Part shown: piece after piece, positions 18,641 through 22,879 of the stretch | Numbering within the stretch: the stretch's first letter is position 1 | How the letters are laid out: each line of letters begins with the position of its first letter | The notes under the pieces: model-generated | What the model saw: only the letters and a program-made list of their open reading frames with translations | What the model was told of the DNA's origin: nothing | Databases searched by the model: none | Assembly: GCA_947473475.1 (NCBI GenBank) | Contig: CANJBZ010000003.1 | Location: 62,001 to 126,000, forward strand | Origin: Alphaproteobacteria bacterium | GTDB lineage: Bacteria > Pseudomonadota > Alphaproteobacteria > Micropepsales > Micropepsaceae | Reading direction: 5' to 3' | Length of the DNA stretch: 64,000 nucleotides | Position numbers and translations under genes: made by a program

Positions 18641-19327
18641 CTAGACTGGTCTGACTTCCAGATAGCAGACGTCGGAAAACACTCCCGAGGCCGCAACCGA
18701 GTATGCGTGAATGTTCGCACCGTTGAATGGTTGAGTGCGGACCCGTTGCCTGGCAACACCGTAGATGTGTCCTTGGTACCGAACAAGCCTCTGTGCGTCT
18801 CTGTTACCAAAATCAATCCATTGCTCCACCCGTGGATCCTGATGGATATAGGGCGGGTCTAAAATTTCCGGTATGTCGCGGACTCTCGCTTCAGGTTTGA
18901 GTATCGCAAGAACCGTATGGAATGTTACAAATTTAACGTTTATTCCCTCATCAAGGACGAGCACGGTTCGCAATTTGCCTTCGCCGTAAATGTCCAATTG
19001 ACCTAGAACTTCGAGCCAATGATCCCCAGCATAGCTTACGGGGTGCCAATTGTGCCTGGGGAAGACGAGTTCGATGTCACTTCCGTAAAGTTCGCGCTCG
19101 AACTGGTCTTCAACGTAGCCGATCTCGAAATTTTCTCCGCTGCCGAGATGACGATTATAAAAATTTCGCAACGCCGCGCAGAGCTTAGGTTCTTTGTTCA
19201 ACAGTATCTGATATCGCGATAATTGGCTGCTGTCTGCCGTTGTTGCGGGCCTCGCGATCGACGAAGGAATCACCACCGCGCCAAGCAATGCCGCTGCAAT
19301 TTTGCAAGTCGTGCTAGCAATGCTCAT
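18641..19327 (-). CDS. Exported hypothetical protein, paralog A
   Basis: A 228-aa protein with an N-terminal signal (KIAAALLGAVVIPSSIA) and no recognised family. It shares with its upstream neighbour the segments LCAALRNFYNRHL, RVEQWIDF, LVRYQGHIYGVAR and a C-terminal cysteine strand (SDVCYLEV), so both descend from one ancestor. The mature part alternates acidic loops with beta-like strands. Its start overlaps the paralog B stop by 4 bases. GC content is clearly lower than the flanking genes, suggesting acquisition. Confidence 0.65.
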   Translation of the reverse strand: MSIASTTCKIAAALLGAVVIPSSIARPATTADSSQLSRYQILLNKEPKLCAALRNFYNRHLGSGENFEIGYVEDQFERELYGSDIELVFPRHNWHPVSYAGDHWLEVLGQLDIYGEGKLRTVLVLDEGINVKFVTFHTVLAILKPEARVRDIPEILDPPYIHQDPRVEQWIDFGNRDAQRLVRYQGHIYGVARQRVRTQPFNGANIHAYSVAASGVFSDVCYLEVRPV

Positions 19328-20043
19328 CGCGCACGCGCTCCAGTTTCCGCCTGTGAGTGGAATTCAATTTGGCAGATATTCGTCAGGGTGCCAGACCGGG
19401 CGAGCAGGAACGCAACGATTGTGCTGTCAGTGATCTTGCCGCGGGCGCGTTCATCGGAAGCGAGCGATCTAGCAACGCCATAATTTTTTCCTTCGTATCG
19501 CAGCAAATGGAGACTAGATGCCCCAATTGTTGTGAGAGGGAGGGCTATGGATGATCCGCCAAGAGCGAAATCGATCCACTGTTCAACTCGTTGGTCGATT
19601 TCTGGCCCGAGGCCATTGAGGAGTTGATCAATTCCACGCCTGTCATCTTCAGGTCGCAGGATGACCATTTGATCTGAGAGCGCGAAAGGGTTCCCCGTGA
19701 CAAAAAAGACAAAGCGCCTCGATCCATCGTTGTAAATATCGATTTCCGGCTGTTGCTGGCCAGTCAGAAAGGTGATGCCACTGGAAGTTAGTTCACCCGG
19801 AAACCGCTCTTCGACATTGCTCCCTCCTTCGCTTGCGGCATCAACCAAGTGGCGCGCATAAAAGCTACCAAGTGCGGTGCAAAGGCGATGGTCATTATCA
19901 AGGGGTATTTTGTATTGCGGTGCGTTGGTAGGCATCTTCGGTGCGTTGGAACGTGTGGCAGCTTGGACTCCGGCCGTGCAGATCGCAGCAGCCGTGAATA
20001 CGAAAGCAAGCCACAATGATCTTGGGAAGCGGTGTGCGCGCAT
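19324..20043 (-). CDS. Exported hypothetical protein, paralog B
   Basis: A 239-aa protein with a signal peptide (LWLAFVFTAAAICTAGVQA). Shared motifs with paralog A: LCTALGSFYARHL, RVEQWIDF, LLRYEGKNYGVAR and a terminal NICQIEF cysteine strand. Sequence between these anchors is diverged, so the duplication is old or the two were acquired as a pair. First gene of the two-gene unit; function unknown. Lower GC than neighbours. Confidence 0.65.
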   Translation of the reverse strand: MRAHRFPRSLWLAFVFTAAAICTAGVQAATRSNAPKMPTNAPQYKIPLDNDHRLCTALGSFYARHLVDAASEGGSNVEERFPGELTSSGITFLTGQQQPEIDIYNDGSRRFVFFVTGNPFALSDQMVILRPEDDRRGIDQLLNGLGPEIDQRVEQWIDFALGGSSIALPLTTIGASSLHLLRYEGKNYGVARSLASDERARGKITDSTIVAFLLARSGTLTNICQIEFHSQAETGARAR

Positions 20044-20142
20044 ATCCCCTCTGCCCGATGACTATGCTGGAACAATCGCTGCGAAGTTAGACGAAGTTAC
20101 GGCGCAATGATCCGGTTTTGGAGGCACAAATCATAAAAATTT

Positions 20143-20175
20143 CACCATGGCCGGGCTTGACCCGGCCACCCAGCC
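20143..20175. repeat. 33-bp inverted repeat, left copy, flanking GIY-YIG gene
   Basis: Exact inverted copy of 20544-20576. It contains the internal hairpin GGCCGGG-CTTGA-CCCGGCC and is followed by a second perfect hairpin, CGCGGCGCG-TC-CGCGCCGCG, at 20175-20194. Confidence 0.9.
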
Positions 20176-20201
20176 GCGGCGCGTCCGCGCCGCGAGACGA
20201 C

Positions 20202-20489
20202 TCAGCTATCGGGAGGCATGAGGTCGTCCCAATTGGGATTCGCCTTCTCGATCAGCGCCAGTTTCCATTCGCGCTTCCAGCGTTTGATGCTGGTCTCGCG
20301 TTGGATGGCGTTGGCGTAGAGCGGGTGTTCTTCGAGCCAGACCAAGCGGGTGACATTGTACTTGGTGACGAATTTCGAGCCGTGGCCGTTGCGGTGTTCC
20401 CAGATGCGTTTGGCTAGTTCGGACGTCACGCCGGTATAGAGTGTGCCGTTGCGTTTGCTGGCGAGGATGTAGACGAAGCCGCTGGGCAT
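20202..20489 (-). CDS. GIY-YIG nuclease domain protein
   Basis: A 95-aa single-domain GIY-YIG endonuclease-like protein. The GIY half is FVYILASKRNGTLYTGVTS (Y-I-L ... Y-T-G), followed by the conserved basic residue in LAKRIWEH and the E-H-P segment (LVWLEEHPLY). It ends IEKANPNWDDLMPP, typical of the short UvrC-Slx1-like/YhbQ-like family frequent in alphaproteobacteria. Function of this branch is unknown; DNA cleavage is plausible. The gene fills almost the whole interval between two perfect 33-bp inverted repeats, so it may be mobilised with them. Confidence 0.9.
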   Translation of the reverse strand: MPSGFVYILASKRNGTLYTGVTSELAKRIWEHRNGHGSKFVTKYNVTRLVWLEEHPLYANAIQRETSIKRWKREWKLALIEKANPNWDDLMPPDS

Positions 20490-20543
20490 GGCAGGAGCAT
20501 AATTGCGGGCGGAGACAGAGTCATTCGCGCGCGATTGCGCGCG

Positions 20544-20576
20544 GGCTGGGTGGCCGGGTCAAGCCCGGCCATGGTG
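20544..20576. repeat. 33-bp inverted repeat, right copy, flanking GIY-YIG gene
   Basis: Perfect reverse complement of 20143-20175. It is bordered on the gene side by a CGCGCGCGATTGCGCGCG palindrome at 20526-20543, the counterpart of the GC hairpin at the left end. No target-site duplication is evident outside the pair. Confidence 0.9.
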
Positions 20577-20716
20577 AGGGGGGAGGCAGGCGGCAGGGAG
20601 GCATGGAACTCCGCCCCCACCCTCACTCTCCCGTAGGTCCCGCCGGGGACATGGGGTATATTCCGCGCCTTCACACGCTCGTTACCGCATCCCACCGCCA
20701 CACCCATGAGGGGACA

Positions 20717-22879
20717 ATGACGACAAAGTTTGCCGCCCGCGCCGCGCTTTTGACCACCAGTTTTGCGGCGCTGCTCGCCGCCTCCACCAATGCATCGGCG
20801 CAGGCCGTGCGCATCGATGCCGATGACATCGGCGGCGTGGTGACGAGCACCAAAGGTCCCGAAGCAGGCGTGTGGGTGATCGCGGAAACGCGCGATACGC
20901 CGACGCGCTACACCAAGATCGTCACGACCGACGATCAGGGCCGCTATGTCCTTCCCGATCTGCCGAAGGGCACGTTCGATATTTGGGTGCGCGGCTATGG
21001 GCTGGTGGACTCGCCGAAGGTGAAGTCGCAGCCGGGCAAGAACCTGGACCTGAAAGCAGTGATCGCACCCAACCGCGCGGCGGCGGCTCAGTACTATCCG
21101 GGCATCTACTGGTATTCGATGCTGAACATCCCCGATGCGAAGCTGTTCCCCGGCACCGGCCCGCAAGGCAACGGCATGCCGGCGACTCTGAAAGATCAGG
21201 GCCAGTGGCTGCGCAATGCCAAGACCGATGGCTGCATTCACTGCCATCAGCTCGGTGACCTCGCCACCCGTACGATCCCCGCGTCACTTGGCCATTTTAA
21301 CACCAGCGCCGAAGCCTGGGAGCGCCGCTTGCAATCGGGTCAGGCCGGAAGCGGCATGATGGAAGCCATCGGGCAATTCGATACCGGCCGTCAGCTCGGG
21401 CTGCTGGGCCAATGGACCGACCGCGTCGCCAAAGGCGAACTGCCGAAGAGTGAGCCGGCGCGTCCCGTTGGCATCGAGCGCAATTTCGCCATCACCGAAT
21501 GGGATTGGAACACGCCGAAGGCCTATGTCCATGACGGCATTTCGACTGATAAGCGCGATCCGCGCGTCAATGCGAAGGGGCTGATCTATGGCTCGACCGA
21601 ACAGTCGACCGAGCTGCTTCCCTGGGTCGATCCGATCAACAACAAATCGGGCGTGCTGAAGACCGAATATCGCGATCCGAAAACCCCGACCACGAAATCC
21701 ACACCGAACTTGGCGCCTTCCCCCTATTGGGGCGACGAGCCGATCTGGGACACGCACACCAATGTGCACAATCCCATGTTCGACGAAAAAGGCCGTCTGT
21801 GGCTGACGGCGCGCATTCGCCCGGCCGCCAATCCCGCCTTCTGTAAGGCGGGTTCGAAGCATCCGTCCGCGATGGTCTATCCGAAGGCGACTTCGAACCG
21901 GCAGACCGAAGTGTACGATCCCAAGACGGGGAAGATCAGCATGATCGACCTCTGCTTCAACACCCACCATCTGAACTTCGACGACAACGGCACGCTGTGG
22001 TTCAGCGCCGGCGGACCGTACGATGTAATCGGCTGGCTGGATGTGAAGAAGTGGGACGCCACGCATGACGATGCGGCGAGCCAGGGCTGGTCGCCGTTTG
22101 TCGTCGACACGAACGGCAACGGCAAGCGCGATGTGGGCTGGGTCGGCCTCGACGGCAAAGTCGATCCGACAAAAGACAAGCAGATCATGGGCGCGCCCTA
22201 CGGCATCAACACCGCGCCGGACGGCAGCATCTATGGCTCGATCCTGGGCTTCCCCGGCGGCGTGCTGCGCTTTGATCCGAAAACGCAGCTCACGGAATTT
22301 TATGAGGTGCCTTACAAGAACGCGAAGGCGGCAAAGTCCGGCTTCTCACCGCGCGGCATGGGTATTGCCAGCGATGGCGTCGTGTGGCTGGCTCTCGCGA
22401 GCGGCCAAGCGGCGGCCTTCGACCGCAGGCTCTGCAAGGGCAAGCTGAACGGCCCCATCGCGGCGGACGCGCAGAATGTCTGCCCGGACGGCTGGAAGAT
22501 TTACGACCTGCCGGGACCCGCATTCGAGAACCTGCCCAAAGACACTATCGGCGCTGGTGCGGAAGCGCCCTACGCTATGTGGGTCGATCAGCAGGATACG
22601 CTCGGCTTCGGCAAGAACACGCCGATTGCCACGGCCAGCCAATCCGATGCCCTTGAAGCATTGGTGGACGGCAAGTGGGTCGTGATGCGCGTGCCGTATC
22701 CGATGAGCTACTACGCCAAAGGCATGGACGGCCGCATCGACGATCCGACCACCGGCTGGAAGGGCAAAGGCATCTACTCCACCTATTCCGAACGCAGTGT
22801 GACCCATATCGAAGGCGGTAAGGGCCAGACCAGCAAAGTGGTGCATTTCCAGCTGCGCCCCGATCCCCTGGCGCACTAA
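20717..22879 (+). CDS. Exported carboxypeptidase-regulatory-like / CxxCH / Vgb-type beta-propeller protein
   Basis: A 720-aa periplasmic protein. Signal peptide at residues 1-29 (ending ASTNASAQA). Then a carboxypeptidase-regulatory-like (transthyretin-like) domain (GVWVIAETRDTPTRY through GRYVLPDLPKGTFDI). A single haem c attachment motif CIHCH follows at about residue 175. The rest is a streptogramin-lyase-like propeller with repeated blades of the type MFDEKGRLWLTAR, NFDDNGTLWFSAG, NTAPDGSIYGSILGF and GIASDGVVWLAL. It might be a redox or lyase enzyme; the substrate is unknown. The ATG at 20717 is preceded by GAGGGGAC and starts the signal peptide; an upstream in-frame extension is repeat DNA. 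Confidence 0.82.
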   Translation: MTTKFAARAALLTTSFAALLAASTNASAQAVRIDADDIGGVVTSTKGPEAGVWVIAETRDTPTRYTKIVTTDDQGRYVLPDLPKGTFDIWVRGYGLVDSPKVKSQPGKNLDLKAVIAPNRAAAAQYYPGIYWYSMLNIPDAKLFPGTGPQGNGMPATLKDQGQWLRNAKTDGCIHCHQLGDLATRTIPASLGHFNTSAEAWERRLQSGQAGSGMMEAIGQFDTGRQLGLLGQWTDRVAKGELPKSEPARPVGIERNFAITEWDWNTPKAYVHDGISTDKRDPRVNAKGLIYGSTEQSTELLPWVDPINNKSGVLKTEYRDPKTPTTKSTPNLAPSPYWGDEPIWDTHTNVHNPMFDEKGRLWLTARIRPAANPAFCKAGSKHPSAMVYPKATSNRQTEVYDPKTGKISMIDLCFNTHHLNFDDNGTLWFSAGGPYDVIGWLDVKKWDATHDDAASQGWSPFVVDTNGNGKRDVGWVGLDGKVDPTKDKQIMGAPYGINTAPDGSIYGSILGFPGGVLRFDPKTQLTEFYEVPYKNAKAAKSGFSPRGMGIASDGVVWLALASGQAAAFDRRLCKGKLNGPIAADAQNVCPDGWKIYDLPGPAFENLPKDTIGAGAEAPYAMWVDQQDTLGFGKNTPIATASQSDALEALVDGKWVVMRVPYPMSYYAKGMDGRIDDPTTGWKGKGIYSTYSERSVTHIEGGKGQTSKVVHFQLRPDPLAH

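Follow-up and report, generated by a model that had tools for sequence, protein, structure and literature searches.

A GIY-YIG nuclease gene framed by inverted copies of a dispersed REP-family repeat in an alphaproteobacterial genome

A close described counterpart of the locus reported here is the Ssn system of Neisseria. Ssn proteins are site-specific single-strand nucleases, reportedly defined by Chenal et al. in Nature Communications in 2025 on a meningococcal homologue and the NTS repeat, and thousands of homologues and cognate sequences are said to be described in the same work; in Neisseria, Ssn modulates transformation. A Neisseria gonorrhoeae homologue of the protein studied here, which we take to be a member of the Ssn family, sits among dRS3 repeats, dispersed palindromes of the form ATTCCC-N8-GGGAAT. 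Because the Ssn family comes with cognate repeats, a nuclease-repeat pairing as such is probably already known. Among the papers searched, none linked GIY-YIG genes with REPs. New here are the connection to CGTC REPs, with family-wide controls, the gene-bearing and gene-less forms that have common ends, and the cassette-like movement.

REPs tagged with CGTC are mainly alphaproteobacterial and have short stems of 8-9 bp, loops of 4-5 nt, a CCA tail and an arrangement as inverted dimers (Di Nocera et al. 2013, PMC3733652). The CGTC-1 type of Neisseria is dRS3, and the class as a whole was described as being without a dedicated transposase, with GIY-YIG genes unmentioned (PMC3733652).

The locus analysed here, a small gene between two inverted repeat arms, lies in a 64,000-nucleotide stretch of alphaproteobacterial DNA, hereafter the window. 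Like CGTC REPs, its repeat had an 8-bp stem, a 5-nt loop, the tail ACCCAG, 117-bp inverted dimers and an alphaproteobacterial host. The outward tag was a variant, CCTC in the right arm and TTTC in the left, each followed by ACC before the stem, whereas most relatives had CGTC or TGTC, with exact CGTCAT or TGTCAT tags in relatives of the same genus and family. One difference was that a specific nuclease gene was paired here with each repeat type, where PMC3733652 names no enzyme. The likeness to Ssn and NTS lay in a single-domain GIY-YIG protein with intact catalytic residues, 53-56% identical to the gonococcal homologue over ~90 residues, and in a dispersed repeat that matches the gene and has two of its copies framing it. 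Unlike that system, the window repeat was of another subtype, each arm of which carries a second hairpin, the gene was central in a dimer that also occurs gene-less, and cleavage is here a prediction. REPIN/RAYT systems similarly have a gene between inverted REPs and gene-less REP dimers spread through the genome, but the window gene encoded a GIY-YIG nuclease rather than a Y1 (HUH) tyrosine transposase, and there was no GTAG tag. GIY-YIG homing endonucleases share the catalytic fold; the window protein differed from them in having no added DNA-binding domain, and its gene was intergenic and repeat-framed rather than lodged in an intron, an intein or a gene that serves as target.

Architecture of the locus and the GIY-YIG protein

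The window ORF listing and sequence confirmed the 95-aa GIY-YIG gene of the preliminary description, on the minus strand at 20202-20489, and its product matched the Pfam GIY-YIG family at 63.7 bits. The 33-bp perfect inverted repeats described on either side were indeed exact reverse complements, but each was one base longer (34 bp, 20142-20175 and 20544-20577), and the inverted match extended to 49 nt at 88%. A further GC-rich palindrome beside each repeat, likewise proposed, was present at ~20175-20194 and ~20526-20543, and both arms folded as single-stranded DNA with z-scores of -3.7 and -4.9. A 19-bp core of the repeat, for which chance would give 0.06 occurrences per 64 kb at up to 3 mismatches, was observed twice in the window, both times at the GIY-YIG gene. 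Because the exact inverted arms fold and the core was so rarely expected by chance, the window observation holds. The features were as follows.

20142..20175, plus strand: left outer repeat TCACCATGGCCGGGCTTGACCCGGCCACCCAGCC, identical to the right copy when reverse-complemented, folding as single-stranded DNA, with dispersed copies in the genome
20148-20168: left outer hairpin, with an 8-bp stem, the 5-nt loop CTTGA and the tail CCCAG facing the gene
20175..20194, plus strand: left inner hairpin CGCGGCGCG-TC-CGCGCCGCG, from sequence and fold
20202..20489, minus strand: single-domain GIY-YIG nuclease gene, 95 aa, with a Pfam match and intact catalytic-type residues
20504..20543, minus strand: inner sequence from the gene start to the right outer repeat; it contains the right inner hairpin (~20526-20543) and has its homologue in the gene-less unit, where it corresponds to spacer and inner hairpin
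20544..20577, minus strand: right outer repeat, by sequence comparison an exact inverted copy of the left one

The catalytic-type residues Y7, Y18, R28, H32, E65 and N84 were all present in the protein and were 99-100% conserved among 101 homologues. Structure prediction gave a confident single-domain GIY-YIG model (pLDDT 90.7), to which the nearest solved folds were UPF0213 1zg2 and Slx1. The protein thus shares its fold with UPF0213 (1zg2, 1ywl) and Slx1, although no UPF0213 GIY-YIG protein or Slx1 is known to be framed by repeats. A match to a PHROG homing-endonuclease family was weak (E 0.0099), and PADLOC returned no anti-phage defence family for the window gene. Because of the kinship with the gonococcal homologue and the cognate pairing described below, the window nuclease is predicted, with good probability, to cut its own flanking repeat. 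The function of this small family had earlier been called unsettled; it is less so than stated if the protein belongs to the Ssn family.

Two adjoining paralogous proteins of ~230 aa (28% identity, E 1.5e-21) were encoded next to the cassette on the minus strand, at 18641-19327 and 19324-20043; both had signal-like N-termini, and neither matched Pfam or NCBIfam. On the other side, the product of 20720-22879 was large, its N-terminus was carboxypeptidase-regulatory-like at a score under the Pfam cut-off, and it had eight matches in its own genome, counting itself.

A dispersed repeat family with gene-less units

The genome to which the window belongs (3.87 Mb, 66 contigs, 99% complete) contained 21 exact copies of the 19-bp core, and 31 with up to 2 mismatches, on both strands; a reversed-pattern control gave none. 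Many of these copies were parts of 117-bp gene-less units, of which ~16 were near-complete, consisting of an outer hairpin, an inner hairpin, a spacer of ~15 nt, a further inner hairpin and an inverted outer hairpin. The second hairpin of these units stood at the position equivalent to the left inner hairpin of the window. In BLAST comparisons the left end of the locus (20142-20189) matched bases 1-48 of the 117-bp unit at 92% and the right end (20504-20577) matched bases 45-117 at 82%. The right inner part, with the spacer, aligned with the gene-less unit better than 300 of 300 shuffles, and the left inner flank alone aligned no better than shuffles (25 of 300 were as good). As both ends match the 117-bp unit, the gene-bearing unit looks like a gene-less unit with ~314 bp, including the gene, placed centrally.

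Rather than a solitary element, the locus is the form with the gene in a dispersed REP family, many copies of which lack it. The preliminary description had proposed a 434-bp element with no transposase; the solitary element did not stand, whereas the absence of a transposase from the unit, and of Y1 from the genome, did. The Y1/RAYT transposase family (PF01797) had no match in the own genome, and therefore none in the cassette. Copies of the repeat far from GIY-YIG genes, and no co-occurrence of the two across genomes, had been named as evidence against the proposed mobile unit. The former were, formally, common in the own genome, but they do not refute it, because dispersed gene-less copies typify a REP-type family; across genomes, repeat and gene did co-occur. 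Rfam contained no known RNA family at the repeat, with matches elsewhere below the gathering scores.

The own genome held 59 palindromes of the form CTCCCCCG-loop-CGGGGGAG, two of which had the GGCCGGGCTTGACCCGGCC hairpin of the repeat in the loop without its tag; the others listed had shorter loops of different sequence. Examples lay at G000:C3:35373-35415 and C12:76907-76955 (G000 being the own genome). At G000:C24:18386 (L023), one outer hairpin was seemingly nested within the inner hairpin of another 117-bp unit. In genome G019, 366 bp without the gene lay between two inverted repeats, the gap sequence being Ns.

Bracketing and repeat type across the bacterial family

Relatives of the window protein were found in 82 of 96 genomes of the same family, at 0 to 9 per genome. 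For each homologous gene, the upstream 250 bp was compared with the downstream 250 bp in reverse complement, and an inverted repeat was counted at a score of at least 14. Among the 94 loci with enough flank, which include three entered twice and are not phylogenetically independent, 72% were bracketed by inverted repeats. The same score was reached by no neighbouring ORF (0 of 82), by 0.4% of sliding windows (n = 926) and by 8% of pairs made up of flanks from different loci. A clear bracketing repeat was absent at ~28% of the homologues. A solitary chance arrangement was ruled out by these controls. The motif was almost always [C/T]GTCAT-palindrome-[A/G]YCCAG, and its tag pointed away from the gene in 43 of 65 cases under the strict pattern and inward in five, the pattern leaving 17 unresolved (mostly outward by eye). 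The median unit length across the family loci was 422 bp.

The own genome had three genes of the window type, each beside a different CGTC-type repeat, and only the window copy was intact. The copy on contig C1 was broken by an in-frame stop and had one repeat upstream, with the contig end near downstream; the copy on C20 had a frameshifted start and repeats on both sides. The other GIY-YIG genes of this genome (UvrC and two beside tRNA genes) were without window-type repeats. The latter two, on contigs C17 (L003) and C24 (L005), belonged to a different subfamily and lay directly downstream of tRNA-Val and tRNA-Met genes. A small inverted repeat, AGCCTTCGCTCGC, occurred on both sides of L003, which may represent a second, tRNA-linked pairing of GIY-YIG gene and palindrome.

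Repeat type tracked protein subtype, not genome. The repeat was shared in 65-100% of gene pairs at protein identities of at least 65% and in ~5% of those below 55%, and a Mantel test gave r 0.51 (0 of 2000 permutations). Paralogues in the same genome with less than 60% identity shared their repeat in only 2% of 53 pairs, compared with 71% of 301 pairs of genes from different genomes at 65% identity or more. This covariation could partly reflect inheritance of the cassette as a single piece. We consider it nearly certain that nuclease and repeat form a cognate unit, or cassette. Repeat abundance correlated only modestly with gene presence: at least three copies of the window repeat were found in 78% of genomes with the window's protein subtype and in 34-35% of others (p = 0.002, kinship ignored). 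In some genomes, such as G020 and G068, many repeat copies were present and no cognate gene was detected; repeats can therefore persist in the absence of the gene.

Movement of the cassette and the enzyme behind it

In genome G044, two cassettes ~30 kb apart were 85% identical over ~560 bp, and the homology ended at the repeats on both sides. In Azospirillum lipoferum 4B, a gene of this kind was framed by repeat dimers between sufB and sufC, whereas A. ramasamyi, A. oryzae and strain B510, with flanks 95-97% identical, had neither gene nor repeats between sufB and sufC. Shinella sp. PSBB067 carried a different GIY-YIG subtype with a different repeat in the same gap. The cassette of G034 was reversed between the same neighbours relative to G032, G073 and G075, an arrangement that either inverted repeats at the borders of the unit or an independent insertion would explain. 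Through duplication, inversion and presence or absence in relatives, gene and repeats appear to behave as a mobile cassette, although ordinary recombination between repeats might also account for the duplication and the inversion. To this extent the possible minimal mobile unit of the preliminary description was upheld, both as a recurring unit and in its cassette behaviour.

Neither a base-precise empty site nor a target-site duplication was found across the compared loci. The nearest relatives had no syntenic empty site for the window locus; G002 and G003 carried orthologues of the right-hand neighbour without the GIY-YIG gene, and their left-hand side was not syntenic. Between Sphingobium plasmids, a repeat dimer was present in two and absent from a third, with the intergenic DNA otherwise rewritten. 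Flanks in the Shinella and Novosphingobium comparison were too diverged to yield a clean empty site.

The best explanation overall, which we regard as likely, is an Ssn-type GIY-YIG nuclease encoded between inverted copies of its own cognate CGTC-class repeat, so that the locus is a REP-type mobile repeat in its gene-bearing form. In a single-stranded region, on the lagging strand or in DNA taken up from outside, the palindromes would fold into hairpins, and the nuclease would recognize its own repeat type and nick near the tagged end. The freed ends would then allow the cassette, or a gene-less dimer in trans, to be copied or re-inserted at intergenic sites elsewhere, and host repair or recombination would complete the process; the gene-less 117-bp units may be internally deleted, MITE-like derivatives. 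That the nuclease actively drives the spread is slightly less likely than not. We offer only tentatively the broader proposal of a class of mobile DNA without a transposase, in which the 95-aa nuclease would cut its own hairpins and so mobilize its cassette and, in trans, the REP dimers that lack the gene. Such nucleases would then be the missing mobilizing enzymes throughout the CGTC-REP superfamily, the counterpart of RAYTs for GTAG REPs.

It is also conceivable, though we would not call it probable, that the protein is a site-specific nuclease useful to the host, with the repeats as recognition marks that spread passively by recombination and gene conversion; cutting them in single strands would modulate how foreign DNA is taken up or recombined. 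The position of the gonococcal homologue among dRS3 repeats agrees with this, as does the conservation of the catalytic core in the 101 homologues despite their sporadic copies; dRS3, of which meningococcal genomes have ~700 copies, is involved in recombination and in the integration of phages (PMC3898611). A selfish element is suggested instead by the breakage of two of the three own-genome genes, by the multi-copy and patchy presence of the gene, and by a cassette duplication with its borders at the repeats. It is unlikely that the repeats are moved in trans by an unrelated transposase, RAYT/Y1 or other, and that the nuclease gene is a passenger between ordinary REPs. RAYTs are presumed to mobilize GTAG REPs elsewhere (PMC3733652) and Y1 proteins do exist in some genomes of the family, but repeat numbers were not higher there, and no Y1/RAYT transposase was found in the own genome or in G048, G065, G066 and G067, which are among the repeat-richest (G048 had 289 copies of two repeat types). 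A RAYT acting in trans was rejected on the absence of a Y1 gene from the own genome and several of the repeat-richest relatives. A passenger gene also fits poorly with a repeat that tracks GIY-YIG subtype and with neighbouring genes that were never bracketed, and in the study of Di Nocera et al. CGTC repeats were not seen to flank any transposase gene (PMC3733652). REPs favour intergenic sites (PMC3733652), as a hot spot of terminator-like palindromes around small intergenic genes would require, but the bracketing of 72% of homologues and none of the neighbouring ORFs, and a sequence-specific pairing with protein subtype, make such a structural coincidence highly improbable.

The pairing of an Ssn-type nuclease with its own repeat names a small, specific candidate enzyme for each CGTC repeat type, in a class left without a dedicated enzyme in 2013. 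If the nuclease cuts its own repeat, and the repeat moves only in its presence, this would be a mobile system in which a nuclease takes the place of the transposase. If it only polices DNA uptake, the pairs would be many natural single-strand cutters with predictable targets.

A different gene was observed between sufB and sufC on a plasmid of Sphingomonas parapaucimobilis (L202, 791-1276), where a DUF559 gene was framed by inverted palindromes of the CCCCTCCCCT...AGGGGAGGGG type. It may be a parallel case, with another nuclease-like family paired in a similar way at the gap that GIY-YIG cassettes occupy in Azospirillum and Shinella.
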